The position numbers and the translations under genes were made by a program. Below are positions 1,962 through 5,175 of a stretch of 64,000 nucleotides of DNA, piece by piece. The DNA is from Cyanobacteria bacterium FACHB-DQ100 (GTDB lineage: Bacteria > Cyanobacteriota > Cyanobacteriia > Leptolyngbyales > Leptolyngbyaceae): contig JACJNW010000034.1 of assembly GCA_014695195.1 (NCBI GenBank), positions 124,001 through 188,000 of the forward strand, read 5' to 3'. The first letter of the stretch is position 1; each line of letters starts with the position of its first letter. The notes under the pieces were generated by a model that did not search any database, had not been told where the DNA came from, and saw only the letters and a list, made by a program, of their open reading frames with translations.

Positions 1962-2504
1962 TTAGTTTGCAACACCTGCGGGGAACTTCACTTCGTTCGG
2001 GGTTACGTTGTCGGATTCAACGCGCTTGCCTTGAATGAACGATCGCAGCATCCATGCCATTTCTTCATGCTGTTCCATCATTCCGGTAAGGAAGTCAGCC
2101 GTTCCTTCATCGTGGAACTCTTCAGAACAACGATCGATGTGTTCGCGCAAGTTGCGGATAATTGTCTCGTGATCGTCAACCAAGTTTTCGACCATGGTTG
2201 AGGCAGGAGGAACTTCACCCGTATGTTCTTGAAGTGAGCCGTATTGGATGAAGCCAGCCGCTGTTCCAACCGGGTATTCGCCCAATTGACGAATGCGCTC
2301 AGCAAGTTGGTCGATCGCTTCGTTTAGGATGGTGTACTGCTCTTCCCAAATTTGGTGCAGGGAGCGGAATTCAGGGCCTGTGACATCCCAATGATATTTC
2401 TTTGTTTTAATCAAAAGCAAGTTTTCATCTGCCAGGTCGCGGTTCAGCATTTCGCATACGCCTTGGCGCTGTTCGTCAGTTAAGCCGATGTTAATTTTAC
2501 GCAT
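1962..2504 (-). CDS. dps: Dps-family DNA-protection / ferritin-like protein
   Basis: The product is about 180 residues and shows the Dps ferroxidase pattern: TKKYHWDVTGPEF with the conserved His, a downstream LHQIWEEQY with acidic ligands, and the helix DDHETIIRNLREH. Dps proteins form dodecamers that oxidise and store iron using peroxide, protecting DNA. Of two candidate starts, GTG at 2513 and ATG at 2504, I chose the ATG (MRKINIGL), which begins the conserved region. The gene is single and convergent with the GNAT gene. Confidence 0.93.
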   Translation of the reverse strand: MRKINIGLTDEQRQGVCEMLNRDLADENLLLIKTKKYHWDVTGPEFRSLHQIWEEQYTILNEAIDQLAERIRQLGEYPVGTAAGFIQYGSLQEHTGEVPPASTMVENLVDDHETIIRNLREHIDRCSEEFHDEGTADFLTGMMEQHEEMAWMLRSFIQGKRVESDNVTPNEVKFPAGVAN

Positions 2505-2618
2505 GACAATCACTTTTTACCTTATCGGGTTTCTTCTGCTAGTTCACCAAATTTCTGTTATGGGGGCATCAGTCGAAGGAAGGAAGGAGGGGTTTGTCAA
2601 TTCCGTCTTCAGAGTGTT

Positions 2619-3218
2619 TTAGGTGGGTTCGCTTGCTTCTTCTTGTGGCTCAGTCCAATCGACTTTGTTGTAGAGGTCAGATACTACAAATTGACAGGGG
2701 ACAGACGAAAGTGAGATTTCGGTATTTTCATCGTCGTAATTGACTAAAATCCAGCGTCGATCGTCGCTTTTGACATAGTGTTCGACATGAATTGTATATT
2801 GATCAATTAATAGATATTCCTGAAACTCTGGAATAGTGCGATAAGCAGTAAATTTCTCGTCTTTATCATAGCTATGAGTTGATTTAGATGATACTTCTGC
2901 AATAAAGCAAGGATTTGTAATCGTATCGCGCCGACCTGGTTGAAGTTGTAGAGGTTGAGCGACGACCATAATGCCTGGATACGTATAAATTCGCTTTTTA
3001 GGAATCCACAATCGTTGAGCCGCTACAAAAATACCGTAAGGTGAACTCCTTAGAGCAACATTTAACTCAGTGTGAAGATTGCCTGTAATTTTGTTGTGAT
3101 TTGGAAATTCACACGACATCAGAACAATTTCACCGTCAATGTATTCTTGTTTCTCATCAGATTGCGCCTCGGCTTCTAAGTATTCTTCTACGGTGTATTT
3201 GCGCTTGGTTTGCACCAT
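2619..3218 (-). CDS. Uma2-family (DUF820) nuclease-fold protein
   Basis: The 199-residue protein has the Uma2/DUF820 layout: an N-terminal YTVEEYLEAEAQSDEKQEYIDGEI, a PGIMVV strand, the segment CFIAEVSSKSTHSYDK with the E-x-S/K pattern of the PD-(D/E)XK core, and EYLLIDQ. Uma2 proteins are massively expanded in cyanobacteria and are predicted endonuclease-fold proteins of unknown role. The usual first catalytic Asp of PD is represented here by the P-G-I-M segment rather than PD, so activity is doubtful. It follows the HTH-GrpE-like gene on the same strand. Confidence 0.85.
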   Translation of the reverse strand: MVQTKRKYTVEEYLEAEAQSDEKQEYIDGEIVLMSCEFPNHNKITGNLHTELNVALRSSPYGIFVAAQRLWIPKKRIYTYPGIMVVAQPLQLQPGRRDTITNPCFIAEVSSKSTHSYDKDEKFTAYRTIPEFQEYLLIDQYTIHVEHYVKSDDRRWILVNYDDENTEISLSSVPCQFVVSDLYNKVDWTEPQEEASEPT

Positions 3219-3276: not shown

Positions 3277-3876
3277 TTAAATCAGACTCACTTTGGCGCG
3301 ATACAACAGTCGATCGTGCTGTCGATACCCCGCATACCGAACGCGAACCAGATCGCCAGGTTCAGCCGCACCGCCCATGAGTTGATGTTGCTGCGGATCG
3401 TAAGGAACTTCAGAACCAACGATCGCAGTTTGCTCAATGCCCCATTGTTGTAGCAGTTGTTCGATCGGGCGCAACAATGGTAGAAGCTTCACCGCAGGCG
3501 CTTGAGGATTTTGTTGGGCTGCATAAGCGGCTGCCGACCATTGGATTAACCAAGGTTCTAAGGTTTGCAGGCTAGATTGTTGGAAGTCCTGTAGTAATGT
3601 TTCGCGTTGTTCTGTTAGTTGAATTTGGAGTCGATCGTATTCTTTCTGCAGGGTGTTCGTTGGAATCAGATCAAACAATGAAAGCAGATCACTCAAAGAA
3701 ATCTCTAAGCGTGCTGCAAATTGTGTGAGTGTTTCTAAACGTAATTGTTGCAGTTGACCCTGCCGCAGTTTGGCAAGCTGCTTTTCGGTCAGACCTGTAC
3801 GATCGCGCAAGGCTCGAAAGGTAGCGAGGTTACGCGATCGCATTAATTCTCGGATTTTTGGCGTGTAGTCGGTCAT
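3277..3876 (-). CDS. HTH protein with GrpE-like C-terminal domain
   Basis: About 199 residues from the ATG at 3876 (MTDYTPKIREL). Residues about 1-65 look like a Cro/XRE helix-turn-helix (RTGLTEKQLAKLRQG then LETLTQFAARLEISLSDLL). A short coiled coil follows (residues about 75-100). The last 45 residues, with VPYDPQQHQLMG, EPGDLVRVRYAGYR and HDRLLYRAKV, match the beta-domain of GrpE nucleotide exchange factors. This combination is known among cyanobacterial proteins annotated as GrpE-like; it differs from housekeeping GrpE in having a DNA-binding-like head. It lies 69 bases downstream of the J-like metallopeptidase gene on the same strand, so the two may be co-transcribed. Confidence 0.7.
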   Translation of the reverse strand: MTDYTPKIRELMRSRNLATFRALRDRTGLTEKQLAKLRQGQLQQLRLETLTQFAARLEISLSDLLSLFDLIPTNTLQKEYDRLQIQLTEQRETLLQDFQQSSLQTLEPWLIQWSAAAYAAQQNPQAPAVKLLPLLRPIEQLLQQWGIEQTAIVGSEVPYDPQQHQLMGGAAEPGDLVRVRYAGYRQHDRLLYRAKVSLI

Positions 3877-3945
3877 ATGAGGCGCGATCAAACATCTTGC
3901 TTTCACTGTATCAGAGTGGTTTGCTGGTGATCACTGTGCGAAGCA

Positions 3946-5175
3946 CTAGCCGAAGGCACCAACAATCCAGCGACGATGCTTGATCAAGAAAAAGACGTAA
4001 AGACTAATCAAAGCAATCAAACAAACATTGCCTAAAGTGTTGTAGGTTGTGATGATTGTTTTATCGCTCCAGTTGTACACTTCGCTGAGTGTATTCATAT
4101 CACCTATATCTTCTCCGAGTAGAAGCGACCCCCAAGGGATTGAGCGTGTGCCTTTCTGGATGTCCTGCCACATTGAGAAGGCTCCCCAGAATGTGTTCGC
4201 GCCGACGATAATTAAGGGATATCTCCAAAAGTCCCATCGCCAATCGTTCGGAAGTTGAAAATAAAAGCCAGCAATCATTAAAGCACTGAGATAAAACTCA
4301 CCACCCACGCCACCAAAGGCAAGCCACATCTCAAACTGATCCGCCGTCTGTATCCAGGTCATCACAAACTGTACGATCGCACAAATCACCGCAAACAACA
4401 TTGTCGATCGCTTTTTCTCTTTCCAACCTGCCCAGAACAGTAAGCCCAACAGCAGCAGCATGCCAAAATAAACAAATAGCGATCGCTCTAGCAACACACT
4501 TGTCCAACCAAACGGTAGCGGTAAAGCGCGTCGTCCAGAAAACCAAGCGACTGTGGCATGACCGACTTCATGCACCCAAAGCTGTAATGGAAATAACAAT
4601 AATTTTGTGAAGCCAAGTGATTGAAACAGAATTGCAGAGCAGATCGCCACCGGAAACGCTAAAAGCAACACATAACGATTCTTGAATGAATACGGATCAC
4701 AATCCTCCGGAGAAACCGCATTGATCGTGAACTGTTTTTTCCAACTTACGAGCCTTGACGATCGCATTCCATAGATCACGATCGTTGTAATTTCAGGTAG
4801 CTCTAAGGTGCGGATCTGCTGATAAATTTGGTTGCCATAGTCATGATTTAAATTAGTTTTGAAAAAGATTTGAAGTGTGTCAGCTTGAATCTTGACATGG
4901 AACGGCTCCGGGTGGAGGCGCTGTATAAACTCTACAATTTGATTCATTAAAGAGTCTGATTCAGATTGATGAGCCGTTTCGTAGAGATGCTCTTTTATTT
5001 GCTCATAAGCAACTTTGAGCAGAGCTTTTTCTTGCTTTGCACCCTGCTGTATTTTCTCCAATGCCTTTTTCGAGTAGGCAGCATCAACCTCAACGATCGA
5101 GGCTCCCGGACTTAACTCTAATAGCGCATAACATTGCTCAAGCGTTAACTCACTCATATCGGGAAGTCCACTCAT
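3946..5175 (-). CDS. Membrane metallopeptidase-like protein with J-like N-terminus
   Basis: The protein is 409 residues from the ATG at 5175, which has AGGA close upstream; a GTG at 5220 and ATG at 5157 are alternatives. Residues about 10-65 (LTLEQCYALLELSPGASIVE then VDAAYSKKALEKI) resemble a DnaJ J-domain helix pattern but the HPD tripeptide is absent. A soluble middle part precedes several membrane segments. The first membrane region ends in WVHEVGHATVAWF (about residue 200), a canonical HExxH zinc site as in M50 site-2-type proteases. I see no clear second NPDG-type motif, so activity is inferred only. Its neighbour encodes a GrpE-like protein. Confidence 0.6.
   Translation of the reverse strand: MSGLPDMSELTLEQCYALLELSPGASIVEVDAAYSKKALEKIQQGAKQEKALLKVAYEQIKEHLYETAHQSESDSLMNQIVEFIQRLHPEPFHVKIQADTLQIFFKTNLNHDYGNQIYQQIRTLELPEITTIVIYGMRSSRLVSWKKQFTINAVSPEDCDPYSFKNRYVLLLAFPVAICSAILFQSLGFTKLLLFPLQLWVHEVGHATVAWFSGRRALPLPFGWTSVLLERSLFVYFGMLLLLGLLFWAGWKEKKRSTMLFAVICAIVQFVMTWIQTADQFEMWLAFGGVGGEFYLSALMIAGFYFQLPNDWRWDFWRYPLIIVGANTFWGAFSMWQDIQKGTRSIPWGSLLLGEDIGDMNTLSEVYNWSDKTIITTYNTLGNVCLIALISLYVFFLIKHRRWIVGAFG

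Follow-up and report, generated by a model that had tools for sequence, protein, structure and literature searches.

Genomes are often assumed to encode a single GrpE, which serves DnaK. A single GrpE homologue was counted in Nostoc punctiforme (PMC9239167). Canonical GrpE (PF01025; PDB 1DKG, 4ANI, 8GB3) consists of a long helix, a short helical part and a C-terminal beta domain, and an AlphaFold model supported by NMR and mutant data places residues 94-106 and 117-129 of the E. coli protein against the beta-hairpin of DnaK (PMC10825016). Three prokaryotic Hsp70 types, DnaK, HscA and HscC, are distinguished in a 2021 review, which argues against an interaction of HscC with GrpE and takes HscA and HscC to have outgrown the need for an exchange factor (PMC8215388). 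In the pairs HspR-DnaK and CbpM-CbpA, a helix-turn-helix (HTH) type protein is tied to an Hsp70 system, and in Anabaena the FurC/PerR regulon (srxA, prxA, ahpC) includes srxA and prxA as FurC targets (PMC10406281). We found no description of an HTH-GrpE protein in cyanobacteria in the open-access literature. To our knowledge, neither HspR nor CbpM has a GrpE module. The main text of a 2025 review of GrpE-like factors contains neither cyanobacteria nor helix-turn-helix or DNA-binding.

We analysed a stretch of 64,000 nucleotides (the window) from Cyanobacteria bacterium FACHB-DQ100 (contig JACJNW010000034.1, positions 124,001 to 188,000). A preliminary description had pointed to two genes on one strand, 69 bases apart, one encoding an HTH protein with a GrpE-like C-terminus (here HG) and the other a membrane protein with an HExxH zinc motif and a J-like N-terminus without HPD. 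It proposed that they could form a membrane proteostasis or signalling unit, and named conserved adjacency among its tests. Both genes were confirmed at that place, strand and spacing, and the features of the locus are as follows.

1962..2513, minus strand: Dps-family gene downstream of HG (Ferritin E 2.6e-31; NCBIfam Dps models below cut-off)
2619..3218, minus strand: Uma2-family gene between HG and dps (PF05685 E 5e-31)
3277..3876, minus strand: HG gene, encoding an XRE helix-turn-helix and GrpE-like protein of 199 aa (ATG 3874-3876)
3283..3438, minus strand: GrpE-like beta domain of HG, residues 147-198 (Pfam, AF2, Foldseek, alignment)
3511..3660, minus strand: long helix in the GrpE-like half of HG, residues 73-122 (AF2 model, alignments)
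3676..3864, minus strand: HTH domain of HG, residues 5-67 (Pfam HTH_26 E 1e-10, AF2 helices, VIA)
3946..5175, minus strand: M50B-like membrane protein, 409 aa from the ATG, not a conserved partner (ORF, Pfam, locus comparison)
4558..4572, minus strand: HExxH zinc motif HEVGH of the M50-like protein, residues 202-206 (sequence)
4972..5142, minus strand: J-like N-terminus of the M50-like protein, residues 12-68, lacking HPD and modelled at low confidence as three helices (Pfam, AF2)

The HG frame is open upstream of its ATG as far as a GTG at 3906. HG matched Pfam HTH_26 at 42 bits (E 1e-10), above the cut-off of 22, and GrpE PF01025 at 21.5 bits (E 2e-4), under the gathering cut-off of 25.8, which some HG relatives pass (for example G068 with 43.1 bits and G042 with 37.4 bits). 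Each of the two models was matched by 27 of 28 HG homologues at E<=0.01 (best GrpE E 4e-11), so that the domain assignment goes beyond chance. The AF2 model (8-sequence alignment; pLDDT 83, pTM 0.45) shows HTH helices at residues 5-67, a 50-residue helix at 73-122, a helix at 127-144 and then the beta domain. A Foldseek search with this model returned GrpE chains from seven PDB entries in rows 1-12 (E 4e-4 to 1e-2, TM 0.3-0.4), followed by XRE repressors. With VIA, the HTH aligned to XRE-type repressors at Z 6.7-8.0, and HG aligned to six GrpE entries at Z 7.6-9.1 and rmsd 8-12, values that can reflect a common long-helix arrangement. The GrpE-type fold, a long helix with a C-terminal beta domain, was recovered by AF2 and Foldseek, and the XRE/Cro-C1 type by an HTH_26 score above cut-off together with the HTH fold. 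As judged from sequence and model, HG combines a divergent GrpE fold with an XRE DNA-binding-type domain at its N-terminus, and the composite protein of the preliminary description is borne out. Within the family, mean identity is lower in the HTH (44%) than in the GrpE-like half (59%) and reaches 64% in the beta domain; the recognition helix is conserved in part only, and no alignment column has more than three Cys among 28 sequences.

The window genome also holds a canonical GrpE (contig C23) and a further GrpE-like relative, of a type sister to HG, on contig C35. HG and the sister type were split 100/100 from canonical GrpE in an unrooted tree whose bootstrap had not fully settled. By two alignment methods, DNFERA of the genome's own canonical GrpE aligned with LIQWSA-type residues of HG, which lie in LEPWLIQWSA of its long helix and read LLQWPTA in the family; the conserved DNFERA-type bundle segment was not found in HG. 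The E. coli counterpart of this stretch, ELLPVIDSLDRAL, is residues 94-106 by our count along the chain. HG thus shares the overall architecture of canonical GrpE but differs by its N-terminal HTH, the replaced segment and its place on the far side of the 100/100 branch. Since the replacement falls where GrpE is thought to touch DnaK, canonical DnaK binding becomes less likely, and in the loci scanned no HG gene stood beside a canonical dnaK. We nevertheless considered that HG might serve canonical DnaK as an exchange factor in times of stress, with the HTH as a relic or a dimerisation unit. The conserved beta domain, alignable to canonical GrpE, would suit this, but we consider it improbable in view of the LLQWPTA replacement of a segment whose E. 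coli equivalent is modelled against the DnaK hairpin (PMC10825016), the 100/100 split of the clade from canonical GrpE, and the pairing of the clade with another Hsp70, described below.

The M50-like protein was largely as first described. HExxH was invariant in 11/11 homologues, Peptidase_M50B was matched by eight of them and DnaJ by six (both at E<=0.1; best DnaJ E 8e-5), and HPD was absent from the first 150 residues in all 11. The window protein itself scored 16.9 bits with Pfam M50B, below the cut-off of 26. The J-like N-terminus was present in 9/11 homologues, the region being missing from L037 and L041; in the longer protein of L035 it begins later, and the alignment shows no HPD there. 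Profile searches gave GrpE, DnaJ and M50B matches across homologues, as the preliminary description had anticipated, and structure prediction supported the GrpE fold and HTH of HG but failed for the M50-like protein, whose model (pLDDT 56.6) was too poor for a fold search.

The proposed pairing, on the other hand, turned out to be local. The M50-like gene was found in 11/292 genomes of the phylum and adjoined HG in none of the other 10 carriers, where every listed HG-clade match was on another contig or at least tens of kb away, and its 1.5-kb flanks contained no HG hit. Its neighbourhoods showed no partner conserved across families. Among the close relatives L064-L067, the pair was kept in three (L064, L065, L067), and L066 has HG with no M50-like gene at the locus. 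Without adjacency beyond the closest relatives, the unit fails the test set for it. A membrane proteostasis unit of HG and the M50-like protein is extremely improbable: the shared strand, the 69-base gap and the retention of the pair in three relatives speak for it, and the separation in all 10 other carriers, the loss in L066 and the J-like region devoid of HPD weigh against it. The M50-like gene beside HG looks incidental.

A different neighbourhood recurs around HG. We compared 74 HG loci, one per genome, drawn from HG-matching genomes and close-relative records by similarity first and then by spread, after removal of 13 duplicates or other copies and of 7 loci of the sister type; some of the loci are short-flanked or reach a contig end. 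A sulfiredoxin gene (srx) lay upstream on the same strand in 33/74, a dps gene at most 1.5 kb upstream in 28/74, and both, in the order srx-dps-HG, in 26/74. Altogether 40/74 had srx or a nearby dps on the HG strand and 34/74 had neither; in some loci without them, genes that by eye look STAS-like or response-regulator/phosphatase-like are found repeatedly. Srx was identified by a match to a solved sulfiredoxin (E 5.5e-30) and Dps by the Ferritin and Dps models. Two genomes of the window's family, G289 and G185, have srx-dps-HG-dps, so dps also lies downstream of HG there. The window genome splits the unit, with srx-dps on contig C25 and HG-Uma2-dps in the window: in this lineage HG has left the srx-dps-HG unit.

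From gene order and name, all4144 of Anabaena PCC 7120 is probably HG. This gene has been called 'probably a chaperon' (PMC8147232), and the main text of PMC10406281, on FurC, does not mention it. The genes asl4146 (srxA) and all4145 (a Dps) are listed with 8.2 and 6.5 in an H2O2 column (PMC4518582). NpDps2, given as the counterpart of All4145 (PMC6616624), has been called an essential protectant against added H2O2 (PMC6675082).

A palindromic box resembling AAGTCATAACGAGTATGATTTA, overlapping a TATGAT (-10-like) element, was present in 30/33 srx upstream regions of HG loci, a count that is not independent because the PWM came from a by-eye seed and was trained on those very regions. The lowest of the 30 boxes scored 12.9 bits, against a top score of 9.8 bits in mononucleotide-shuffled upstreams, and in two of the three srx upstreams without a box (L078 and L089) a site overlaps the srx start as called. 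The published FurC/PerR consensus, CAAAATCATAACGACTTTG, has the same core as the box, TCATAACGA (PMC10406281). Both this core and the leading srx gene liken these loci to the FurC/PerR regulon of Anabaena, but HG of the window has no box: upstream of HG and of M50-HG the best scores were -8.5 and -3.9 bits. HG loci lacking srx upstream had a box in 1/41 (L109), a rate not above the 4.1% found for random 600-bp segments from the same loci (srx boxes included). The exception, L109:3877-3898, is a 33-bit box about 30 nt before the HG frame in a genome without detected srx (G103), as if srx-dps had been lost and the promoter retained by HG; match positions suggest that HG has likewise retained a box promoter in G072, G127 and G153, of the same genus.

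The window genome has 14 places that fit the 17-base box pattern with at most 2 mismatches, against 8 for a reversed control. Six of them, including an overlapping pair at srx, lie ahead of redox genes, five in all: srx and the genes for thioredoxin reductase, Fe/Mn-SOD, FMN reductase and 2-Cys peroxiredoxin. FurC/PerR-like boxes lie before the thioredoxin reductase-thioredoxin, Fe/Mn-SOD, FMN reductase and 2-Cys peroxiredoxin genes at L145, L146, L150 and L157. Across the class, the pattern was matched in 84/104 genomes outside family f19 against 44/104 for the reversed control (165 against 80 sites), and within f19 in 4/35 against 3/35. This genome-wide count is weak, and several matches have no frame starting nearby (for example L176, L178, L185 and L193) and may lie inside genes.

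Our first idea was that the palindrome in front of srx is bound by HG. Near-matches also precede redox genes of the window genome, but the FurC/PerR consensus has the same core, and box and HG do not travel together (1/41 loci without srx); this idea was dropped as less simple. A broader alternative sees HG as a transcription regulator with the GrpE-like half as sensor of an Hsp70 (DnaK or the Hsp70-like protein), comparable to HspR and DnaK; the chaperone would alter its DNA binding, and HG would tune srx-dps or other genes. The presence of HTH_26 in 27/28 members, the operon-like order with genes that HG might regulate, and the precedents of HspR-DnaK and CbpM (PMC4063869) argue for it; HspR and CbpM are, however, MerR-type relatives (PMC4063869). 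The conserved srx box is already explained by FurC/PerR (PMC10406281), HG and the box part company where srx is missing, and no HG operator was found. We regard this alternative as unlikely, if less so than service to canonical DnaK.

The reading that we prefer rests on a second Hsp70. In 6/7 sister loci the sister gene is followed or preceded by a short Hsp70-like gene. The Hsp70-like proteins are mostly 520-550 aa long, and their Pfam match (PF00012, E 1e-26 to 1e-35 at the sister loci) covers the nucleotide-binding part only. They thereby resemble DnaK, HscA and HscC, but differ by a short C-terminus and, in group A, by the GrpE-like gene alongside; the two copies of the window genome fall well short of the NCBIfam DnaK and HscA cut-offs, these being the models compared. 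Group A was represented by the best match of each of the 26 top-scoring genomes (L077 and L086 recur here as L225 and L221) and the more distant group B by the next four loci by score and eight hand-picked regions. A gene of the HG/sister clade lay within 1 kb on the same strand in 22 of the 26 group-A loci, seven of them with an overlap of 1-11 nt; no such neighbour was detected in the other four, nor in any of the 12 group-B loci. By a hydropathy cut-off, 11/17 of the GrpE-like partners have an N-terminal membrane-like segment, which the C35 copy lacks, and some sister proteins also carry a weak HTH. In L202, L203, L204, L206 and L208 (the L055 locus, scanned as such), a protein with both a membrane-like segment and HTH_26 (E 9e-6 to 0.03) stands beside the Hsp70-like gene. 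On C35 of the window genome (G000; L044:4116-6298), the sister gene overlaps a short Hsp70-like gene by 4 nt. The Hsp70-like protein of L224:1501-4050(+) has 849 aa and a C-terminus that looks by eye like WD40 repeats, and at L205:1498-3057(-) an Hsp70-like gene beside a GrpE-like gene is broken by a stop into two frames.

HTH-bearing members without a transmembrane segment adjoin the Hsp70-like gene in L050, L077 and L086. L050 reads box-srx-dps-HG-hsp70, with a box of 20.5 bits and a 64-nt gap ahead of the Hsp70-like gene; the overlap is 4 nt in L077 and 1 nt in L086. These three were placed by the family profile and an identity of about 36-40%: Pfam detected GrpE in neither L050 nor L086 at E<=0.05 and only weakly in L077 (E 0.0097), and the GrpE tree left out L077 and L086 and has L050 as a long branch. 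In the Hsp70-like tree, the L050 protein falls with group B with moderate support (82/99), and L077 (a long branch) and L086 lie at the base of the main group-A branch. The Hsp70 theme of the preliminary description consequently survives for HG, by way of the short Hsp70-like gene of its clade, and not for the J-like partner, which lacks HPD.

HG relatives were found in 105/292 genomes of the phylum. According to hand-transcribed tables, on which all class-wide counts inside and outside f19 rest, an HG-clade match is present in 103/104 class genomes outside f19 and 0/35 inside it; one of the 103 (G123, 30% identity, short frame) may be of the sister type only. G241 is the one genome of the class outside f19 in which no HG-clade gene was detected; it does have an Hsp70-like gene and box-pattern matches. 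A profile search of eight f19 genomes and G241, run without a positive control, found no HG. The Hsp70-like gene is present in at least 71/104 genomes outside f19 and 0/35 inside (E<=1e-60), the former a floor, since at most five candidates were scored per genome and G036, whose Hsp70-like gene lies in L050, is not among the matches listed. Srx was found in 3/16 f19 genomes searched. The f19 genomes, which we guess to be marine picocyanobacteria, are small (1.6-3.7 Mb) and miss many genes, so the shared absence of HG and the Hsp70-like gene is weak evidence.

We accordingly lean, with somewhat less than even confidence and from sequence comparisons, towards HG being an HTH-bearing cofactor of a second, peroxide-linked Hsp70 system. 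The partner of the HG clade would most likely be the short Hsp70-like ATPase and not canonical DnaK. The sister branch, often membrane-anchored, would pair with group A, and HG would be the soluble HTH branch. Because the L050 Hsp70 falls in group B, and the window genome has its A copy on C35 beside the sister gene and its B copy alone on C39, our guess is that HG serves the B copy there. The GrpE-like half may dock on the Hsp70-like nucleotide-binding domain, and the HTH may tie the Hsp70 machine to DNA, or the machine may control DNA binding by the HTH. Many relatives have HG in third place in an srx-dps-HG unit behind a PerR box, so that peroxide stress probably induces its synthesis there. 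E. coli DnaK is temporarily inactivated under oxidative stress (PMC4807281), which makes a separate Hsp70 unit for peroxide stress plausible, no more. Several observations count against this preferred reading: an Hsp70-like gene is next to HG in only 3/74 loci (flanks being limited to 1.5 kb in many), of which two lack a Pfam GrpE match and the third has a weak one, and G241 has the Hsp70-like gene with no detected HG. Likewise, 34/74 loci are without srx or nearby dps, the box is missing from the HG and M50 genes of the window and from all but one of the 41 HG loci that lack srx upstream, conservation is lower in the HTH than in the GrpE-like half, the group-B support is moderate and the shared absence in f19 is weak.

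For the conserved gene that follows the Dps gene in many relatives, this reading provides candidate partners. More widely, it is possible, though we hold this with less confidence than the role of HG itself, that cyanobacteria run a second Hsp70 machinery, in which a short divergent Hsp70 has its own GrpE-like cofactors, one often membrane-anchored and one, HG, DNA-borne via its HTH and wired to the PerR peroxide response beside sulfiredoxin and Dps. A near-universal HTH-carrying GrpE relative together with a short Hsp70 would, if true, amount to an exchange-factor system outside DnaK, HscA and HscC.
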